Of a stretch of 64,000 nt of DNA, positions 52,689 to 64,000 are shown piece after piece. Source of the DNA: an uncultured Pelagibacteraceae bacterium. GTDB lineage: Bacteria > Pseudomonadota > Alphaproteobacteria > Pelagibacterales > Pelagibacteraceae. Within the stretch, counting starts at the first letter, position 1, and every line of letters starts with the position of its first letter. The translations under genes were made by a program, and so were the position numbers. The stretch covers positions 1 through 64,000 of the forward strand of contig CACJQT010000001.1 of assembly GCA_902595635.1 (NCBI GenBank), read 5' to 3'. The notes below the pieces were generated by a model that ran no database searches, was not told the DNA's origin, and was given only the letters and a program-made list of their open reading frames with translations.

Positions 52689-53809
52689 TTTCTATAAATT
52701 TTTCCAAGATAACTCTCTAGAAATTTTTTATTTTTTGATAAAAATTTCAAAACAATATTTCTAATTAATATTATTATTGGATTAGTTAAATGGAAGGCAA
52801 AATGATTTAATTTTGATCTTTTATTTACTAGTAATATTTTACTTATCTTATCTTTATAAATACTATTTGAATTTGTAATATTTTCTAAAATACCATTTGC
52901 TGTTTCAATACTTTGAGAAGCACCTTGTGCAAAAGAAGGTGGAAAAGCAAATAAAGCATCTCCACTCAAATAAGTATTTTGATATTTTAGTGTGGGTAAT
53001 TCAGTGCTTACAAATACAGGAAAACACTTTATATTTGCTAAATTTTCCAAATTTATAATAGAATTTTGTGAAATAAAGTCTTTTAAAGATTTTATAAATG
53101 TTTCTGAATTAAGAACATTTTTATCTTCAATTTCTTTAGTAGTTAGTTTCTTTTTGATTATAGCTACGAAATTATATTCGAGTTTTTGATTTACAGGATA
53201 AGTTACATAGTGAAAATTTGAGCCCATATAAACAGAAATATTATCTTTTTCATGTTGTTTTAAATTCGCCCTTAAAGCAATATTCCCATTAAAAATTGGG
53301 TTTAAATGATTATTGGATATTTGGGATTTTAATTTTGAAAAAACACCGTCTGCAATTACTACATAATCGAAACTTTCATTCTTATTATTCCAAGAAATCT
53401 TTATTTGTTCATTATATTCGATATTTTGAATATCGGCTTTAAATTGAATTTTTTCCTCAGGTATATTACCAATTAAAAACTTTATTAATGTTGATCTTTT
53501 AAGTGTTGTGTAACGATCGTTTACATTATTAAATTGCTTTAAATCAATTTCACAAATCTTTTTAATATTATTAGCCTGGAAAAAATTAACTTTTGTTGGA
53601 TAATAAACATCTGAGGCTGAAATATTTTTAAATCCGATTTTATTCAACAAATTAATACTATTAACTGAAAGTTGAATGCCATAACCGTCATTTAAATTGA
53701 GATAATCTTTTTTTTCAAAAATTTTATAGTCTATTTCAGTATTTTTGTTTAATTCATTTGCAAGATACAAACCAGATATACCAGCTCCAACAATTGCAAC
53801 TTTTTTCAT
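52685..53809 (-). CDS. FAD-dependent aromatic monooxygenase-like protein
   Basis: A 374-residue class A flavin monooxygenase: FAD-binding AIVGAGISGLYLANEL at 4-19, ADGVFSKLKS (the DG motif) near 149, and GDALFAFPPSFAQGASQSIETA near 285 (the GD motif that binds the ribityl chain). The group includes UbiH/UbiF ubiquinone hydroxylases and salicylate-type hydroxylases; the substrate cannot be set from sequence. The start overlaps the mutY stop by 4 nt. A C-terminal hydrophobic stretch (NPIIILIRNIVLKFL) may dock at the membrane. Confidence 0.82.
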   Translation of the reverse strand: MKKVAIVGAGISGLYLANELNKNTEIDYKIFEKKDYLNLNDGYGIQLSVNSINLLNKIGFKNISASDVYYPTKVNFFQANNIKKICEIDLKQFNNVNDRYTTLKRSTLIKFLIGNIPEEKIQFKADIQNIEYNEQIKISWNNKNESFDYVVIADGVFSKLKSQISNNHLNPIFNGNIALRANLKQHEKDNISVYMGSNFHYVTYPVNQKLEYNFVAIIKKKLTTKEIEDKNVLNSETFIKSLKDFISQNSIINLENLANIKCFPVFVSTELPTLKYQNTYLSGDALFAFPPSFAQGASQSIETANGILENITNSNSIYKDKISKILLVNKRSKLNHFAFHLTNPIIILIRNIVLKFLSKNKKFLESYLGKIYRN

Positions 53810-54798
53810 TCAGATTTTGAGATGGTGTAAAATATTTTTTTAGTAAATGATGGAATTATTTCTGAGCTTAATTTATCTTCTTTGATTAGTATTTTATTTT
53901 TAATCTTTGGAGGTCTTTTTGAGTTATTTAACAAAATTTTCATTTCCATATTAGATAATTTTATATTAATTTTTTTATTATTTGAATAATTATACTTACT
54001 TTCTCGAACTTCAGTCATAGGAAAAATTGGCATATTTTTTAAAAATTTAAATTTATCATTTTTGACTAATAAGTAGTTATTATGTTTTTTGTAAATAGTC
54101 GCCTCGAAATATTTAGTTTTTATTTCTTTATTAATTTTAGTTAACTCAAAATCATTTTTTTTTAGAGATATACAATTTTTATTTAAAGGACATTCCTTAC
54201 AACCTGGGTTTTTTGGTTTGCATATTAAAGCACCCATCTCCATGATTGCTTGGGAGTAATCACTAGCGCGATTTGACAGTCCAAAAAAATTAATTTTTGT
54301 TTTTAAAAAATCTTTAGATATTTCATTCTGCTTTTTTAAATATAGAGTTCTTTTAAGAATTCTCTCAACATTTCCATCTAAAGGAATAGTTTTAAGGTTA
54401 AATGCTATAGACATTATTGCTTTAGATGTATATTCACCTACTCCTGGTAATTGTAACAACTTTTCATAGGATCTTGGCAACTTACCATGGAAATCTCTAA
54501 CAATTATAATTGCACTTTTTTTTAGATTTCTTGCTCTTGAATAATAACCAAGACCTTCCCAATGTTTCATTAAGATCTTTTCGTCGACATTTGCCAATGA
54601 TTGAAAGGTTGGAATTTGTTTTACAAATTTTTTAAAATAAGGAATAACAGTTTTTACTTGAGTTTGCTGCAACATAAATTCACTAACAAACGTAAAATAT
54701 TCTTTTTGCTTCTGAGAAACTTTTTTTCTCCAAGGTAAAATTCTTTTATTATTATCGTACCAAAGTAGAATTTTATTTGATATGTTTTTATTATTCAT
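53806..54798 (-). CDS. mutY: A/G-specific adenine glycosylase MutY
   Basis: Removes adenine opposite 8-oxoguanine. From the ATG at 54798 it has 330 residues: SEFMLQQTQVKTV with catalytic Glu, the HhH motif LPGVGEYTSKAIMSIAF, VDGNVERIL with catalytic Asp, and the [4Fe-4S] loop C-x6-C-x2-C-x5-C (CKPKNPGCKECPLNKNC). A C-terminal MutT-like domain follows. A start at 54843 would add 15 hydrophobic residues not seen in the family. Its ATG abuts the divergent dciA ATG (CATATG). Confidence 0.95.
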   Translation of the reverse strand: MNNKNISNKILLWYDNNKRILPWRKKVSQKQKEYFTFVSEFMLQQTQVKTVIPYFKKFVKQIPTFQSLANVDEKILMKHWEGLGYYSRARNLKKSAIIIVRDFHGKLPRSYEKLLQLPGVGEYTSKAIMSIAFNLKTIPLDGNVERILKRTLYLKKQNEISKDFLKTKINFFGLSNRASDYSQAIMEMGALICKPKNPGCKECPLNKNCISLKKNDFELTKINKEIKTKYFEATIYKKHNNYLLVKNDKFKFLKNMPIFPMTEVRESKYNYSNNKKINIKLSNMEMKILLNNSKRPPKIKNKILIKEDKLSSEIIPSFTKKIFYTISKSE

Positions 54799-55281
54799 AT
54801 GAGTCAAAAATATAATACTAAGCAGAGATATAACTCCATTCAAGGTTTAAGATCTTTTAAAGATACTTTACCCACAGAAGCAAAAAGAATAATTAGTAAA
54901 AAAGGTAAAATTTATAATGAAACTTTAGATAATTGGAAATATTTAGTAGGTAAAGATCTATTTAAAGTAAGCTTTCCTAAGTCATATAAAAGTTCAAACA
55001 AGTTATCGGGCAGTCGTTTAAATATTTTAGTAAAGAGGGGAAATGAAGTTGACGTTGAGTATTCTAAAAAAGAAATAATAAAAAAAATTAATGCTTTTTT
55101 TGGCTATCATGTTTTAGATGACATTAAATTGAATACATTTGATGGAAAAATTGAAGAAAGCCATAAAAATACCGCTATTAATGCGACAAAAAATAAACAT
55201 ATAAAGAGCATAAATAATATTAAAAATGACAAAATAAAAAACTCACTTTTAGAGCTAAGTAAACATTTTAAAATAAAATGA
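54799..55281 (+). CDS. dciA: DUF721/DciA-family protein
   Basis: A 160-residue DUF721 protein. In bacteria lacking DnaC or DnaI, DciA loads the replicative helicase DnaB. The KH-like domain pattern LDNWKYLVGKDLFKVSFPKS followed by RLNILVKRGNEVDVEYSKKEIIKKINAFFG is visible at about 40-115. A charged, probably disordered tail follows. The position between mutY and the DsbA-like gene is conserved in alphaproteobacteria. It overlaps the DsbA-like gene by 4 nt. Its start codon abuts the mutY start on the other strand. Confidence 0.88.
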   Translation: MSQKYNTKQRYNSIQGLRSFKDTLPTEAKRIISKKGKIYNETLDNWKYLVGKDLFKVSFPKSYKSSNKLSGSRLNILVKRGNEVDVEYSKKEIIKKINAFFGYHVLDDIKLNTFDGKIEESHKNTAINATKNKHIKSINNIKNDKIKNSLLELSKHFKIK

Positions 55282-55853
55282 AAAAAATAATTCTTGTCTC
55301 AATTTTAATTTTTTTTAATTTCATTAATGCTAATTCTGAAGTTAAACCAATTTTAGTAGGAAATGCAGACTCAAAAGTTAAGTTGATGGTTTTTGAATCT
55401 TTAACTTGCAGTTTTTGTGCAAATTTTCATAAAAATATTTATCCTAAACTAAAAGAGGATTTTATTGATAAAGGATTGATTTCAATAGAATTTAAAAGCT
55501 TCCCATTAGATATCATTGCATTTAATGCAACTAAATTAGCGCATTGTAGAAATGATGGTGAGCATGAAATTTTGCATCACCTTTATTTAAATCAAGATAA
55601 GTGGATCAAGGGAAAAAATGAATTAGAAGCAAATCAAGCAATGAAAAAATTTATTGATAATACTGAATATAATCTTGATTTTGATAAGTGCTTGGCTGAT
55701 AAAAAGATAGAGGATCACATTTTAGAAGACCGAATCGAAGGTGTTAAAAAGTATAAAGTGAACGCCACTCCTACAGTCATAATTAACGGAAAAAAGTTTG
55801 AAAATCACTCAAACTACAAAAAATTAAAAAAATACATTGAAAAACTGATATAA
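55278..55853 (+). CDS. DsbA-family thiol:disulfide oxidoreductase
   Basis: A 191-residue exported thioredoxin-fold protein: signal peptide 1-20, active site C44-S-F-C47 in SLTCSFCANFHKN, an inserted helical domain, and the cis-proline loop VNATPTVIINGKKF near 165. Additional cysteines lie at about residues 93 and 134. It probably oxidises or isomerises disulfides of secreted proteins, but no DsbB is seen here. It lies in the conserved mutY-dciA-dsbA-smc cluster and ends 8 nt before smc. Confidence 0.9.
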   Translation: MKKIILVSILIFFNFINANSEVKPILVGNADSKVKLMVFESLTCSFCANFHKNIYPKLKEDFIDKGLISIEFKSFPLDIIAFNATKLAHCRNDGEHEILHHLYLNQDKWIKGKNELEANQAMKKFIDNTEYNLDFDKCLADKKIEDHILEDRIEGVKKYKVNATPTVIINGKKFENHSNYKKLKKYIEKLI

Positions 55854-55861
55854 ATCAGTGA

Positions 55862-58435
55862 ATGGAATTTAAAAAAATTCAACTAAATGGATTTAAGTCT
55901 TTTGCTGAAAAAACAAATTTCCTGATTGAAGAAGGTTTAACTGGGATAGTTGGCCCAAACGGTTGTGGCAAATCAAATATAGTGGAGTCTTTGCGATGGT
56001 GTATGGGTGAGACATCAGCAAAAAGTATGAGAGGTTCAGGAATGGAAGACGTTATATTTTCTGGAACTTCAAACAAACCATCAAAAAATATTGCAGAAGT
56101 TTTAGTGAGCTTATCAAATGACAACAAGGATGGTCCTCTACAATATAATGAGCTCGATGAAATTGAAATAAGAAGAAAAATAGAAAAAGATAAAGGCTCA
56201 AAATTTTATATAAATGGCAAAGAAGTTAGAGCAAAAGATGCTCAGATGTTTTTTGCAGACTTATCAACAGGTGCTCATTCACCTTCGATTATTAGTCAAG
56301 GTAGAATTGGAGCATTAGTCACAGCAAAGCCTTCTGATCGAAGAGCTATCTTAGAAGAGGCAGCTGGTATAGCAGGTTTACATGTTAGAAGACACGAAGC
56401 AGAATTAAGATTAGGCGCGGCAGAAAATAATTTAAAAAGGGCAGATGAATTAAGAAGACAACAGGAAAGACAATTAGCAAATTTGCAAAAGCAAGCTGAA
56501 GAGGCTGCAAAATACAAATCTATTTCAGAAGAAATAAAAAAAGTTGAGGCAGGTTTATATTATTTACGTCTTTTAGAAATTGATAATGAAATTAAAGTAG
56601 AAAACGAGATCAATAATGAGGCTGATGATCAAGTTAAGTCCTTCAATGATAAATTAGAGGATTTAAGCATGAAAATTATTGAAAAGAATAAAAATGTAAA
56701 TCCTATAAGAGAAAAAAATCAAGAAAACTTGTCAAAAATACAAAGATTAAATTTAGAGTTAAAGAGCTTAGATGAAGAAAAAGACAGGGTTAATGATGAA
56801 ATACAATCAATTAGAAAGGCTTTAAGTGTAATAGATGAGGATATTGTTAGAGAAAAAAGCATAATCATTGATGCAAACTCTAATGAAAAAAGACTTAGAG
56901 AAGAAAAAGAAAATTTAATTACAGTTGACTCCAAATATTATGAAACTGAAAAACTGTCTGGTTTAGATTTGGTAAATGCAAAAAGTAAATTAAAAGATGA
57001 GCAAGATAAGTTAGAGAGAATACTAGAAAATCTAAACCTTGATACTCTAAAAAAGAACTCAGAAACTATTGATTTAGCAAGTGAGCAGTTAGATAAAGCA
57101 AAACAAATGCTCTCAGAGAACAATATCAATGGTGCAACTAATTTAATAGATGAATGCAAAATAAATCTTTCATTTTTAAAAATGAAAATTAATGAAATGC
57201 ATGACAACGATTTAGCGATAACAGTAACTAAGAAAAACGAAGAAATCAAAAGTCTACAAGAAGAATACGCTGAAGCATTTAGTACAAATCAAAATATTAA
57301 AAAAGAGTCAATAAAAAGAAGTGAAAGAATTAAAATCATTGATCAAGAGATAGAAAGTTGGAAAAACTTATTGGTAAATTCTGAAAAAATGATTAATGAA
57401 TTAAATAGTAGAAAAGATACTCAACAAAAAAAATTAGATAGCCTTGAAAAACAACCTCAAACACAAGCTGAAAGAAAAGGACAAATATCTGAAAGTTTAA
57501 GAATTTCTGAAAAAGAAAAAAGTGATAATGAAATATTAATAGATGAACTAGATAAAGAGATTAACGAATTGAGAAGCAATCTTAATACAACAAAGGAAGA
57601 GTCTATTGAAATAAGAGAACGAAAAGCAAGCTCTGGAGCAACAATCGATGGTTTGAATAAAAGAAGAAATGATTTGTTAGAAAGAGTATCAACAGAACTT
57701 AATTTAAAAGAAGAGGAGATACTTAATTTTTCAAATTTAAAAGATGCATCTGAATATCCAGATACAGTAACACAAGAGGAATTGCTTGATGAAAAAAAAA
57801 GAGAAAGAGAAAAATTAGGCTCAGTTAACTTAAGAGCAGACGAAGAGACTTCAAAATATGAAGATGAAATTAAGAAAATGGAAAAAGATAGACAAGATTT
57901 AGTAACTGCAATTATAAAATTAAAAGAAAGTATTACTGAACTCAATCAGAAAGGTAGGGAAAGACTTCTAGATGCTTTTGAAAAAGTGAATAGAAAGTTC
58001 AATGAAGTTTATACCAAACTATTTAATGGAGGTAGTGCAAAACTAGAACTAGTAGACTCTGATGATCCTTTAGATGCAGGATTAGAAATGTTGGTAAGTC
58101 CTCCAGGAAAAAGATTGCAATCAATAACTTTATTATCTGGAGGTGAACAAGCCCTTACTGCTTTATCTTTAATCTTTGCAGTGTTTCTTACTAATCCAGC
58201 TCCAATATGTGTTCTCGATGAAGTAGACGCACCTCTAGATGATGCGAATGTAACAAGATTTTGCAATCTTTTGACGGAACTAACTAAAATTACATCTACA
58301 AGATTTATTATTGTAACTCACCACGCTCTAACCATGTCTAAAATGGACAGACTATATGGTGTAACAATGCCAGAAAAAGGAATTAGCCAACTAGTTGCTG
58401 TAGATCTTCAAAAAGCAGAGAGTATGGTTGCTTAA
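55862..58435 (+). CDS. smc: Chromosome segregation ATPase Smc, short and apparently hinge-less
   Basis: SMC ATPase for chromosome organisation. The 857 residues have an N-terminal head with Walker A GPNGCGKS (31-38), coiled coil from about 175, conserved LGSVNLRADEE (652-662), and a C-terminal head with signature LSGGEQ (759-764) and Walker B ICVLDEVDAPLDD. The family is usually about 1150 residues with a hinge of about 180 residues in the middle. Here the middle (about 385-450) is helical and has no recognisable hinge motifs, and no CxxC hook. The synteny mutY-dciA-dsbA-smc supports orthology with normal alphaproteobacterial Smc. Confidence 0.93.
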   Translation: MEFKKIQLNGFKSFAEKTNFLIEEGLTGIVGPNGCGKSNIVESLRWCMGETSAKSMRGSGMEDVIFSGTSNKPSKNIAEVLVSLSNDNKDGPLQYNELDEIEIRRKIEKDKGSKFYINGKEVRAKDAQMFFADLSTGAHSPSIISQGRIGALVTAKPSDRRAILEEAAGIAGLHVRRHEAELRLGAAENNLKRADELRRQQERQLANLQKQAEEAAKYKSISEEIKKVEAGLYYLRLLEIDNEIKVENEINNEADDQVKSFNDKLEDLSMKIIEKNKNVNPIREKNQENLSKIQRLNLELKSLDEEKDRVNDEIQSIRKALSVIDEDIVREKSIIIDANSNEKRLREEKENLITVDSKYYETEKLSGLDLVNAKSKLKDEQDKLERILENLNLDTLKKNSETIDLASEQLDKAKQMLSENNINGATNLIDECKINLSFLKMKINEMHDNDLAITVTKKNEEIKSLQEEYAEAFSTNQNIKKESIKRSERIKIIDQEIESWKNLLVNSEKMINELNSRKDTQQKKLDSLEKQPQTQAERKGQISESLRISEKEKSDNEILIDELDKEINELRSNLNTTKEESIEIRERKASSGATIDGLNKRRNDLLERVSTELNLKEEEILNFSNLKDASEYPDTVTQEELLDEKKREREKLGSVNLRADEETSKYEDEIKKMEKDRQDLVTAIIKLKESITELNQKGRERLLDAFEKVNRKFNEVYTKLFNGGSAKLELVDSDDPLDAGLEMLVSPPGKRLQSITLLSGGEQALTALSLIFAVFLTNPAPICVLDEVDAPLDDANVTRFCNLLTELTKITSTRFIIVTHHALTMSKMDRLYGVTMPEKGISQLVAVDLQKAESMVA

Positions 58436-58437
58436 TA

Positions 58438-58713
58438 ATGGATGAAGACCAGTTTAAAACTCGCCTAAAAATTGCAAAAAATAAAACCGATAAAGACAAA
58501 AAATCTGAAAAGGAAAATAAAGGCTCAAGTATGGGATCAGCCTTCAAAATGAGCACGGAATTGGTATCTGCAGTGGCTGTTGGGACAATTATTGGGTTTA
58601 TTTTAGACAATTGGTTTGGTACTAAACCCTGGTTAATTTTAATATTTTTTTTTATTGGTGTAGTAGCTGGAATTATGAACGTTATTAGATCAGCAAAAAA
58701 AATGCAAAAATAG
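58438..58713 (+). CDS. atpI: ATP synthase accessory protein AtpI
   Basis: A 91-residue protein with a charged N-terminus and two membrane helices (about 42-58 and 63-82). It is similar to AtpI/AtpZ, which helps assemble the c-ring or bring in Mg2+. The pattern GSAFKMSTELVSAVAVGTIIG and LDNWFGTKPWLILIFFFIGVVAGIMNV is typical. It is the first gene of the Fo operon, 2 nt after the smc stop, so no separate promoter is obvious. Confidence 0.9.
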   Translation: MDEDQFKTRLKIAKNKTDKDKKSEKENKGSSMGSAFKMSTELVSAVAVGTIIGFILDNWFGTKPWLILIFFFIGVVAGIMNVIRSAKKMQK

Positions 58714-58720
58714 TAGGCAA

Positions 58721-59452
58721 ATGGCAGCAAATCCAATGTACCAATTCAACGTGTACCGAATTGGTCCAGAAATTAAAATAAATAACATAGATATTTCATT
58801 CACAAATGCGAGTTTGTTTATGGTCATAAGTTCACTAGCAATATTAATTATTTTTAACTTAGGCACGAAGAGATCTATCATACCAAATAAAATTCAATTA
58901 CTTGCGGAACTCAGTTACTCTTTTATTTCAAAAATGATAAGTGATACAGCTGGATCGAAAGCTAAGCCTTACTTTTCTTTCATATTTTCTTTATTCATGT
59001 TTGTTTTATTTTGTAACATGTTTGGGATGATACCATACTCTTTTACTGTCACTAGCCACATCATTGTAACTTTTGTATTAGCAGCATTTATATTTATAGG
59101 AGTAACAATAATTGGATTTATTAAACATGGACTTGGATACTTAAAACTTTTTGTGCCAAGTGGAGTTCCAATGGTTTTATTGCCATTAATAGTTGTTATA
59201 GAAATAATTTCATACTTAAGTAGACCAATTAGTTTATCAGTTAGATTGTTTGCAAATATGATGGCAGGCCATACGATGATGAAAGTTTTTGGAGGTTTCG
59301 TAGTTAGCTTAGGAATTGTTGGGGGCTGGCTACCACTAGGTTTTTCAGTTGCATTAACAGGTTTGGAGATATTAGTTGCTTTTCTTCAAGCATATGTATT
59401 TGCAATTTTAACATGTATCTATTTGAATGATGCATTAAATTTACACCATTAA
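58721..59452 (+). CDS. atpB: ATP synthase Fo subunit a
   Basis: Membrane stator subunit forming the two proton half-channels against the c-ring. The 243 residues span about six helices. The essential arginine lies in ISLSVRLFANMMAGHTMMKVF near 168-188. ALTGLEILVAFLQAYVFAILTCIYL near 210 is the last conserved helix. Standard length for proteobacteria. It lies 7 nt after atpI and 19 nt before atpE. Confidence 0.98.
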   Translation: MAANPMYQFNVYRIGPEIKINNIDISFTNASLFMVISSLAILIIFNLGTKRSIIPNKIQLLAELSYSFISKMISDTAGSKAKPYFSFIFSLFMFVLFCNMFGMIPYSFTVTSHIIVTFVLAAFIFIGVTIIGFIKHGLGYLKLFVPSGVPMVLLPLIVVIEIISYLSRPISLSVRLFANMMAGHTMMKVFGGFVVSLGIVGGWLPLGFSVALTGLEILVAFLQAYVFAILTCIYLNDALNLHH

Positions 59453-60828: not shown

Positions 60829-62286
60829 ATGAATTCCATTGTAATTGGATCAGGTTTTGGTGGTATGGCGGCAGCTCTTAGACTTCGAGCAAAGGGTCAT
60901 AAAGTTACTTTAATTGAAAAACAAAAAGATTTAGGTGGAAGAGCGAGAGTATTTAAAAGTAATGGGTTTACTTATGATGGTGGACCAACTGTAATAACTG
61001 CTCCTTATTTAATTTATGAAATTTTTAAACTTTTTAATAAAAATCCAGATGATTATATAAAAATAAAAGATTTGGATACTTGGTACAGATTTGTTTTCGA
61101 AGATGGAAGTCATTTTGATTATTCAGCTGATGAAAAGAAAATGGAAGAACAGATTGCAATAATTAATCATAAAGATGTTGTGGGTTACAGAAATTTACTT
61201 AAATTTACAAAAAAAATATTTGATAAGGGTTATTCAGAATTATCAGATGTGCCATTTGATAAACCTTCATTTATGTTTAAGCAAATTCCTGCGTTGCTAA
61301 GTTTAAAAAGCTATAAATCTGTTTATTCTTTGGTTAGTGGCTTTATTAAAAATGAAAAACTAAGAAGGCTATTTAGTATGCACCCATTATTGGTGGGTGG
61401 GAACCCTTTTACTACAACCTCTATATATGGATTAATTTTGTATTTAGAAAAAAAATGGGGAATTCATTATTCTATGGGTGGAACGGGACAAATCATAAAA
61501 GGTTTTGAGAAATTGATGTTAGAAGAAGATGTTACAATTATTAAAGGTAAAGAAGTTAAAAACTTGCTTACAGAAAATAAAAAGGTTGTCGGGGTTGTGA
61601 CAAGTGAAGATGAGGAAATTAAAGCAGATAACGTAGTTTGTAATGCAGATCCTCCAGGTGTTTATTCAAAAATGCTAAATAATCAAAAATATAACACCCT
61701 ATTTAATTGGAAGATAAATAGAATGGAATATTCAATGGGATTGTTTGTTTATTATTTTGGAACGAAGAAAAAATATGAAAATGTTGAACATCATACTATA
61801 AAGTTTGGCGATAAGTACAAAGAACACTTGGATGATATATTTGTAAACAAAAAATTAAATAATGATATTAGCTATTACCTACATAGACCTACCGCAACAG
61901 ATTCAAGTATGGCACCAAAAGACCATGATTGCTTTTATGTATTAGTACCTGTACCTAATAATAAATCAGGAATAAACTGGTCAATCGAAGGAGAGAATCT
62001 AAAAAAACTTGTGATAGATAAAATGGAAAAAAGTTTATTACCTAACTTAAGAGAAAATATTGTAGATGATTTTTATTTAACTCCTGATTATTTTGAGAAT
62101 GAATTAAACACAAAATATGGCTCTGGTTTTTCAATTCAGCCAAAATTTTCTCAATCAGCATACTTTAGATTTCATAATAAATCTGAGGTTTATGACGGTT
62201 TATATTTTGTTGGAGCGGGCACTCATCCTGGAGCTGGTGTTCCAGGGGTCCTATCATCCGCAAAGGTCTTAGATAAAATTTTGTAA
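60829..62286 (+). CDS. crtI: Phytoene desaturase
   Basis: FAD-dependent desaturase that converts colourless phytoene to lycopene. The 485 residues have the N-terminal dinucleotide motif VIGSGFGGMAAALRLRAKGHKV at 5-26, GGRARVFKSNGFTYDGGPTVI near 37-57, and the C-terminal bacterial-CrtI signature GLYFVGAGTHPGAGVPGVLSSAKV. It starts 48 nt after atpF and overlaps crtB by 1 nt. In SAR11 and other marine bacteria this pathway leads to beta-carotene and retinal for proteorhodopsin. Confidence 0.97.
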   Translation: MNSIVIGSGFGGMAAALRLRAKGHKVTLIEKQKDLGGRARVFKSNGFTYDGGPTVITAPYLIYEIFKLFNKNPDDYIKIKDLDTWYRFVFEDGSHFDYSADEKKMEEQIAIINHKDVVGYRNLLKFTKKIFDKGYSELSDVPFDKPSFMFKQIPALLSLKSYKSVYSLVSGFIKNEKLRRLFSMHPLLVGGNPFTTTSIYGLILYLEKKWGIHYSMGGTGQIIKGFEKLMLEEDVTIIKGKEVKNLLTENKKVVGVVTSEDEEIKADNVVCNADPPGVYSKMLNNQKYNTLFNWKINRMEYSMGLFVYYFGTKKKYENVEHHTIKFGDKYKEHLDDIFVNKKLNNDISYYLHRPTATDSSMAPKDHDCFYVLVPVPNNKSGINWSIEGENLKKLVIDKMEKSLLPNLRENIVDDFYLTPDYFENELNTKYGSGFSIQPKFSQSAYFRFHNKSEVYDGLYFVGAGTHPGAGVPGVLSSAKVLDKIL

Positions 62287-63137
62287 TGAATGAACAAAAT
62301 TATTTGTCGATATACGCTAAATCTTTTAATTGGGCAGGTTTCTTTTTACCAAAACAAGTCTATTCTGATTGCTCCAATTTGTACGATTTTTGCAGATACA
62401 TAGACAATATAGCAGATGAAAAAGGTGATCTTGATACGAAATTAAAAAATTTCAATACTTTCAAAGAAGATTTCAAATTAAAAAATGAAAATAACCAAAT
62501 AATTAAAAATATGTGGGCTTTAATAAATAAATTTGGAATATCACAAAAAATAATTGATGATTTATTCGATGGCGTAGAGGCTGATATAAAATCAAAAGTA
62601 GAAATCAACACTGACAAAGATCTATATGTTTATTCATATAGAGTGGCTGGAACAGTTGGATTAATGATGGCAAAAATTTTAAATGTCAAAGAAAGATCAG
62701 CACTTTTAGGAGCGATTGACTTAGGTATTGCAATGCAATTAACTAATATTTCAAGAGATGTTATTGAAGATGAAAGCAATAATAGGTTTTATATAAAAAA
62801 GAATTTTGATGAAATTAAAAGAATTCTAAAAATCGCTGACAAATTTTATAGTAATTCTTTTATATCAATTAAAAAAATTCCATTCTTTTTAAGATTTTCG
62901 ATTTTGGTTGCAAGACGAGTATATAGACAAATTGGAAATGAAATCTTAAAAAAAGGAAACTTAGAAAATTATAATAAATCAGGAAAAATTTATGTAAACA
63001 ATTTGGGAAAAGTCTTACATACAGTGCTATCTATTGGTGATTTAATTAAATTATATTTTGTAAAGGAAGATAAAAAACTTACAATAAAAGAGCATGAGAT
63101 AATAATGCAAGATATTGAGTATAATGAAAGATTTTGA
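62286..63137 (+). CDS. crtB: Phytoene synthase
   Basis: Condenses two geranylgeranyl diphosphates into phytoene. The 283 residues have both Asp-rich substrate-binding motifs: FCRYIDNIADEKGD near 32-45 and LTNISRDVIEDESNNRFYI near 152-170. VAGTVGLMMAKIL near 120 is also typical. Its start overlaps the crtI stop by 1 nt (TAATG), and its end overlaps crtY by 14 nt, so the three are one operon. Confidence 0.96.
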   Translation: MNEQNYLSIYAKSFNWAGFFLPKQVYSDCSNLYDFCRYIDNIADEKGDLDTKLKNFNTFKEDFKLKNENNQIIKNMWALINKFGISQKIIDDLFDGVEADIKSKVEINTDKDLYVYSYRVAGTVGLMMAKILNVKERSALLGAIDLGIAMQLTNISRDVIEDESNNRFYIKKNFDEIKRILKIADKFYSNSFISIKKIPFFLRFSILVARRVYRQIGNEILKKGNLENYNKSGKIYVNNLGKVLHTVLSIGDLIKLYFVKEDKKLTIKEHEIIMQDIEYNERF

Positions 63138-64000
63138 TTACATAATTATTGGAGGTGGCTGTGCAGGTTTAACATTGGCTTATGAGTTAGAGTATCACGA
63201 TAAACTTAAAAATAAGACTTTAGCAATTATTGAAAAAAGAGATGAATATAAAAGAGATAAAACTTGGTCATATTGGAAAACTGTACCTCACAAGTTTGAT
63301 GACTGTGTAAAAAAAAGATGGAAAGATTATACAATCAATTTTAAAGGAAATGTTGAATATAAAGATTGTAAAGAAACTCCTTACGAAAGTATTGATAGTG
63401 GACTATTCTACAAAAAAATTTTAAATAAAATCAATAAAAATCCTAATATTCAATTCTTTAAAGATATTAGTGAAGTTAATACAGAAAACGCAATTTTATT
63501 TAACAGTCTGCCAAATCTTGAGAATAAAGATTCTAATTTATGGCAACACTTTCAAGGTGTTGAGATTGAAACTGAAAAAGATTTTTTTGATGATCAAATA
63601 ATGAATTTAATGGACTTTGATTGCGATCAAAAAAAAAGCGTTCATTTTTTCTATACACTACCCTATTCAAAAAAATCAGCTTTAATTGAAACCACGTGGC
63701 TTTCAAAAATGGAAGATGATAGTGAAAAAGATTATGATAAACAAATTACTGATTACATAGAAAACACTTTAAAATTAAAAAAATATAAAATTAATTACAA
63801 AGAAGTTGGGGCCATACCATTATTTTATCCGAAATTTAAAAACGATAAAAATACGATTAATATCGGAACTGCTGGCGGTATGACGCGTTTGAGTACTGGC
63901 TATACTTTCCTAAATATTCAAGAACAAGCAGAATATATTACCCAAAATATTGATAGAATAACCCAAACTAGAGCTTTCAATATAAAAAATAAGTATAAGT
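63124..64000 (+). CDS. crtY: Lycopene beta-cyclase (partial, cut by the window end)
   Basis: Cyclises lycopene to beta-carotene. The frame opens with ATG at 63124 and runs without a stop to base 64000 (292 codons). Seen: the FAD-binding DYIIIGGGCAGLTLAYEL, the TWSYW motif near residue 49 typical of bacterial CrtY, SVHFFYTLPYS near 175, and GTAGGMTRLSTGYTF near 255. It overlaps crtB by 14 nt. The missing C-terminus should be about 80-100 residues. Expected neighbours beyond the edge (for example blh) cannot be seen. Confidence 0.94.
   Translation, partial: MKDFDYIIIGGGCAGLTLAYELEYHDKLKNKTLAIIEKRDEYKRDKTWSYWKTVPHKFDDCVKKRWKDYTINFKGNVEYKDCKETPYESIDSGLFYKKILNKINKNPNIQFFKDISEVNTENAILFNSLPNLENKDSNLWQHFQGVEIETEKDFFDDQIMNLMDFDCDQKKSVHFFYTLPYSKKSALIETTWLSKMEDDSEKDYDKQITDYIENTLKLKKYKINYKEVGAIPLFYPKFKNDKNTINIGTAGGMTRLSTGYTFLNIQEQAEYITQNIDRITQTRAFNIKNKYK

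Follow-up and report, generated by a model that had tools for sequence, protein, structure and literature searches.

A hinge-less Smc orthologue in SAR11 (Pelagibacterales)

SMC machines are taken to require the hinge as their joint, and the loss of this domain in SAR11, the kind of bacterium most abundant in the ocean, challenges the idea that such a machine needs it. The protein described here is encoded in the window, i.e. the whole stretch of 64,000 nucleotides that was analysed, and is referred to below as the window Smc. It resembles the canonical Smc of Smc-ScpAB (TIGR02168) in its heads, its proximal arms, its gene order and, as far as most near-complete genomes of its family are concerned, its ScpAB partners, and differs from it by the absence of the hinge and of the hinge-proximal coil. 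Rad50/SbcC likewise lacks a globular hinge and has an antiparallel coiled coil on an SMC-like head, but carries a CxxC hook that the window Smc lacks. Rad50 models reached at best 44.6 on the window Smc against a cut-off of 1087, and no RecN model was present among the best 25 of its 34 NCBIfam rows. A Bacillus subtilis Smc engineered to carry the Rad50 zinc hook in place of the hinge is reported to grow normally and is thus functional without the hinge fold, which is therefore dispensable (PMC5344682). That engineered protein has a strong dimerisation module, however, whereas the natural SAR11 tips have no known one.

'Hinge-less' oceanic SMCs were published in 2025 (Sussfeld et al. 2025, PMC12153180) and the kind is therefore already known. 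As here, these proteins are described as having SMC heads and a coiled coil with neither hinge nor CxxC, and they come from the ocean. They were nevertheless assigned to Actinomycetes, near the base of the actinobacterial Smcs, whereas gene order and head similarity place the window Smc in the Alphaproteobacteria, the two sets being compared by description. The terms SAR11, Pelagibacter and ScpA have 0 occurrences each in the main text of that paper, and no report of hinge loss in SAR11 was found in the literature searched, which covered few subscription papers. Surveys using the hinge as the query, as reported in PMC5344682, would miss hinge-less Smcs.

The smc gene spans positions 55862..58435 on the + strand, as do all the protein features given below, and encodes 857 aa with no internal stop across its 857 codons. 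The SMC_prok_B model (TIGR02168) scored 679.5 bits, above the curated cut-off of 567.35; several relatives of ~800 aa score below this cut-off. Both ends of the protein match solved Smc heads, and a split ABC ATPase head with Walker A, signature and Walker B motifs is present. Its N-terminal half (residues 1-172, 55862..56377), delimited from this match and from AlphaFold2 elements, contains Walker A at residues 31-39 (55952..55978), in invariant alignment columns. The C-terminal half, delimited likewise (residues 691-857, 57932..58432), contains the signature motif at 758-762 and Walker B at 785-787.

The gene is preceded by a divergent mutY-like glycosylase gene (53806..54843, - strand; HhH-GPD and HHH), by dciA (54799..55281, +; PF05258) and by a gene for a dsbA-like thioredoxin-fold protein (55278..55853, +), which has a strong match to Thioredoxin_4, its match to the DSBA model being below cut-off. 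It is followed by an atpI-like gene (58438..58713, +; ATPase_gene1) and atpB (58721..59452, +; ATP-synt_A), so that Pfam backs the order mutY-dciA-dsbA-smc-atpI-atpB. The dciA and dsbA-like genes also precede smc at a locus of the sister family (f154, L199), at one of a further family (f24, L198) and at one with a full-length, hinge-bearing Smc (L201). At another locus (L196), mutY, dsbA-like and atpB genes surround the hinge-bearing Smc L105, and the gene in the dciA position has no Pfam match. The original prediction that this is the normal, single, syntenic Smc was therefore upheld by both the SMC_prok_B score and the gene order, and the protein is shown to be the vertically inherited Smc of its order, SAR11/Pelagibacterales to judge from the record titles of named relatives. 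Since the hinge of a canonical Smc is lacking, it is filed as a hinge-less Smc orthologue and not as a canonical Smc. Further downstream, at 60829-63999, the translations of three genes that follow the ATP synthase genes resemble, by eye, phytoene desaturase, phytoene synthase and lycopene cyclase, and look like a set for carotenoid synthesis.

The Pfam SMC_hinge model (PF06470) found no match in the window Smc and none in its own genome. This model detects a hinge in only 58 of the 190 genomes of the class (Alphaproteobacteria) and was dropped as a hinge test. Long alphaproteobacterial Smcs do have a hinge, and annotation consequently understates the presence of hinges. Because of this insensitivity, a class-specific profile was derived from 31 long alphaproteobacterial Smcs, using their hinge columns. 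On 12 held-out rows with a hinge (two from one genome), among them Smcs of 864 and 875 aa, it scored 77.9-167.3 bits. The short Smcs comprised 92 rows: 61 from the window's family (f1), 29 from the sister family and two from f24. The profile gave -0.1 bits or less on the 63 rows of f1 and f24, window Smc included, and at best 1.4 bits on the 29 of the sister family. The original prediction had presented a single odd gene; the hinge loss proved instead to be a trait of the window's family and of its sister family. A set of 80 named-record loci, 12 of which had no full Smc frame and were left uncounted, gave a similar picture: all 15 full Smcs from records titled Pelagibacteraceae (798-863 aa) were without a hinge match, and all 53 from the other named records (1136-1217 aa) were hinge-bearing, with at least 67.8 bits.

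A hinge encoded elsewhere in the genome could in principle be added in trans. A 32-row hinge alignment was searched against whole genomes and matched none of 64 (50 of the window's family including its own, 12 of the sister family and two of f24; the assemblies of two of them, G319 and G393, contain no strong Smc match), whereas all 12 control genomes outside the alignment matched with E values of 1.1e-25 or better. No support for such an arrangement was found; it was dropped for this profile and is considered very improbable. Together with the AlphaFold2 model described below, these searches bear out that the hinge is truly absent: the hinge-profile search suggested in the original prediction was run and the window Smc matched neither PF06470 nor the class-specific profile.

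The possibility of a truncated, decaying or misassembled Smc deserves attention, as the window comes from a draft genome of 45 contigs with 81% completeness, in which scpAB was not found. The same architecture is nevertheless found in the 92 distinct short rows and in the 15 named records, and the Walker and signature motifs are invariant across the alignment. Median dN/dS was 0.035 in the N-head, 0.059 in the N-arm, 0.164 in the apex, 0.085 in the C-arm and 0.023 in the C-head, these being rough values from 60 pairs drawn randomly out of 112, with dS mostly above 1. By these substitution ratios, purifying selection acts on all parts of the hinge-less Smc, with low values in both heads and arms. 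Among the matches listed, family frames are at most 891 aa long (147 genomes searched), and the Smc of a relative (G289, L136) differs from the window Smc at 4 of 857 residues. The frameshift or assembly deletion that the original prediction had named as its possible undoing is thereby excluded. Pseudogene, frameshift and assembly deletion were ruled out by the open reading frame, the family frames, the dN/dS values and the near-identical relative, and the chance that the gene is such a product is negligible. The hinge-less Smc is a lineage trait and not an artefact.

The extent of the loss was measured between two conserved arm stretches, used as anchors. In the window Smc, the N anchor covers residues 278-350 (56693..56911), at a distance from the N-terminus equal to that of hinge-bearing Smcs, and the C anchor covers residues 484-560 (57311..57541), with W500 and P532. 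The last residue of the N anchor is 350 in nearly all groups and 343-352 over the 92 short rows, in all of which 353-384 residues separate the C anchor from the C-terminus. Full-length spacing is thus preserved over ~350 N-terminal and ~375 C-terminal residues. The stretch in between, where the hinge is expected (residues 351-483, 56912..57310), has 133 aa in the window Smc. It has 74-160 residues in the 61 rows of the window's family, 128-129 in the 29 of the sister family and 91 in the two of f24, against 373-435 in 32 long, hinge-bearing Smcs and 142-257 in five rows that are short but keep the hinge. The measurement leaves out six long rows with a hinge (L019, L160-L164), which had no anchor match. 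As the hinge alone takes roughly 113-133 residues according to hinge-profile matches, the shorter hinge-less forms have no room for it beside any coil. The tryptophan of the C anchor is found at 500 in the window Smc, at 441 in a 798-aa form and at 793-794 in full-length relatives. The hinge and the hinge-proximal part of both coiled-coil arms were lost in an ancestor of the window's and the sister family. Arms of about 217-260 residues are obtained for the window's family by adding 350 to half the inter-anchor length and subtracting 170. A natural arm-length mode of 238 residues has been reported (PMC5344682), and the proximity of the two may be due to chance.

Two relatives, L105 (864 aa) and L112 (875 aa), are similar to the window Smc in size, anchors and loss of the hinge-proximal arm but keep the hinge (77.9 and 99.9 bits), and provide a matched comparison for the hinge-less forms. 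L105, which lies outside the order, also retains its hinge in an AlphaFold2 control: a helix and strand element at 371-472, with strands 441-444, 462-465 and 470-472, is placed between two long helices. This control used 38 rows, mostly hinge-bearing; confidence over the hinge region was low to moderate (block means 34-84). Since a protein of 864 aa can retain the hinge, shortness does not explain its loss, and the alpha/beta element of L105 has no counterpart in the window Smc.

The AlphaFold2 model of the window Smc is a monomer built from 47 alignment rows, of moderate confidence (mean pLDDT 75.5, pTM 0.45). The N-arm occupies residues about 173-418 (56378..57115; helices 173-247, 255-389 and 393-418) and the C-arm residues about 422-690 (57125..57931; helices 422-445 and 448-529 next to the tip), in rough agreement with the arm limits originally proposed. 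Short breaks at 390-392 and 446-447 interrupt the helices, and the chain reverses at a turn (419-421) within a few residues of the midpoint between the anchors. No strand of at least 3 residues is present between 134 and 724; at 385-450, where a compact hinge had been sought, the monomer model displays helices and no strands. The remaining arms are therefore predicted to be joined by a short helical hairpin (residues 414-432, 57101..57157). A motif around the turn is common to 24 of the 63 rows of f1 and f24, against 0.5% of shuffled apex segments. In these 24 rows, the motif lies 35-37 or 64-65 residues from the N anchor and 38 or 68 from the tryptophan, and between forms of 798-800 aa and forms of 857-858 aa the length changes by 27-30 residues before the tip (N side) and by 30 after it (C side). 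A near-equal change of length on both strands is what would be expected of a plain antiparallel hairpin, not of a globular domain. A Foldseek search with the full model recovered heads (Smc, Rad50, MukB) and long arms and was uninformative on the tip.

As originally predicted, the apex of the window Smc has no CxxC, and a zinc hook was ruled out for this protein. CxxC occurs in the apex of 1 of the 92 short Smcs. This exception (L151, genome G195, from the window's family) has it at 414-417, just before the tip turn and where a zinc hook would sit; it is perhaps a chance occurrence, perhaps an incipient hook.

The coiled-coil tips of RecN probably dimerise. By analogy, the helical tips might form a specific dimer that replaces the hinge one for one, as suggested by the predicted hairpin, by the enrichment of the turn motif and by the precedent of unrelated modules replacing the hinge (PMC5344682), hook and hinge being reported as interchangeable in Rad50 (PMC6969161). 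The motif is nevertheless lacking in 39 of the 63 rows, and the apex of the sister family is different. The apex is also the most variable part of the protein in terms of alignment conservation and, with the motif confined to these 24 rows, no single conserved dimer interface is visible. A RecN-like tip dimer is regarded as possible, on the unlikely side.

The partners of Smc were examined next to the protein itself, as scpA and scpB had been named in the original prediction as genes to look for. Neither ScpA nor ScpB has a match in the window's own draft assembly. Each of them is present in 108 of the 147 family genomes and in 48 of the 53 near-complete ones, mostly side by side; five of these 53 have no match to ScpA and five none to ScpB, and at least four near-complete genomes (G285, G190, G224, G252) match neither. 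The draft also lacks the whole 6,254-base scpAB region of G289, of which 4 stray matches, none longer than 68 bases, were all that was obtained. The absence of scpAB from the draft is thus most likely an assembly gap. A loss of ScpAB, suspected from the window's own genome, was abandoned in view of the 48 relatives out of 53 and of the missing region.

The proposed reading is that of a working Smc-ScpAB condensin closed by its heads and kleisin, in which distal contact, if any, is made by arm or tip; a probability of about 60% is assigned to it, its function being inferred. The protein would still act as Smc in the Smc-ScpAB condensin. ATP binding would join two heads, the kleisin ScpA would connect one Smc at its neck with the other at its head cap, and ScpB would sit on ScpA. 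DNA could then be retained by the compartments that heads and kleisin enclose, with no ring closed at a hinge. At their far ends the Smc molecules would be held together, if at all, by the coiled-coil arms or the hairpin tips, through a contact less firm than a hinge or opened more readily. Long arms are reported to help keep the Smc dimer together (PMC5526789). Counting against the proposal, B. subtilis Smc is reported to be non-functional once hinge dimerisation is abolished (PMC5344682). The variability of the apex, with no single conserved dimer interface in sight, the moderate confidence of the monomer model and the missing ScpA and ScpB matches in the window's draft and in five near-complete genomes each also speak against it.

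The B. subtilis result also weighs on the idea that distal dimerisation is absent altogether, the Smc monomers meeting only through ATP-bound heads and ScpAB, with free tips, as an open clamp and not a ring. Such a clamp would accord with the retention of ScpAB without hook or hinge, with an apex that is the least conserved region and with the fact that, within one genus, both strands change in length symmetrically by ~30 residues each, a change poorly compatible with a specific tip interface. The apex dN/dS of 0.164 is nevertheless well under 1 and the tip hairpin is common to some lineages; the open clamp is held to be possible, on the unlikely side. Within the proposed condensin, contact through arms and tips is preferred, at slightly better than even odds, over the lack of any distal contact, which is deemed appreciably less probable. 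A tentative and less likely reading is that SAR11 segregates its chromosome with a condensin that has no constitutive SMC-SMC joint, its arms being free hairpins and its motor working via heads, kleisin and ScpB alone. If such a jointless condensin were true, SMC action could do without hinge closure and, with it, the classical tripartite ring. A lineage with Smc and ScpAB but no hinge constitutes a natural experiment on the question of whether distal ring closure is needed for loading, segregation or loop extrusion.

In a tree of head sequences, the window's and sister families group together as a clade (100/99), with f24 placed apart, which requires 2 changes; the bootstrap had not converged, and a single clade of all hinge-less rows was not rejected (p-AU 0.423). 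The short hinge-bearing L105 and L112 sit elsewhere in this tree, and arm shortening without hinge loss has therefore also occurred. Several small alphaproteobacterial genomes that are 99-100% complete (e.g. G005, G010, G068, G110) display weak matches only to the Smc model and may be without a canonical Smc. Arm length is very variable in the class: two other families, f27 (L160, L161) and f131 (L162, L163), possess Smcs of about 1341-1522 aa in which the hinge is kept.
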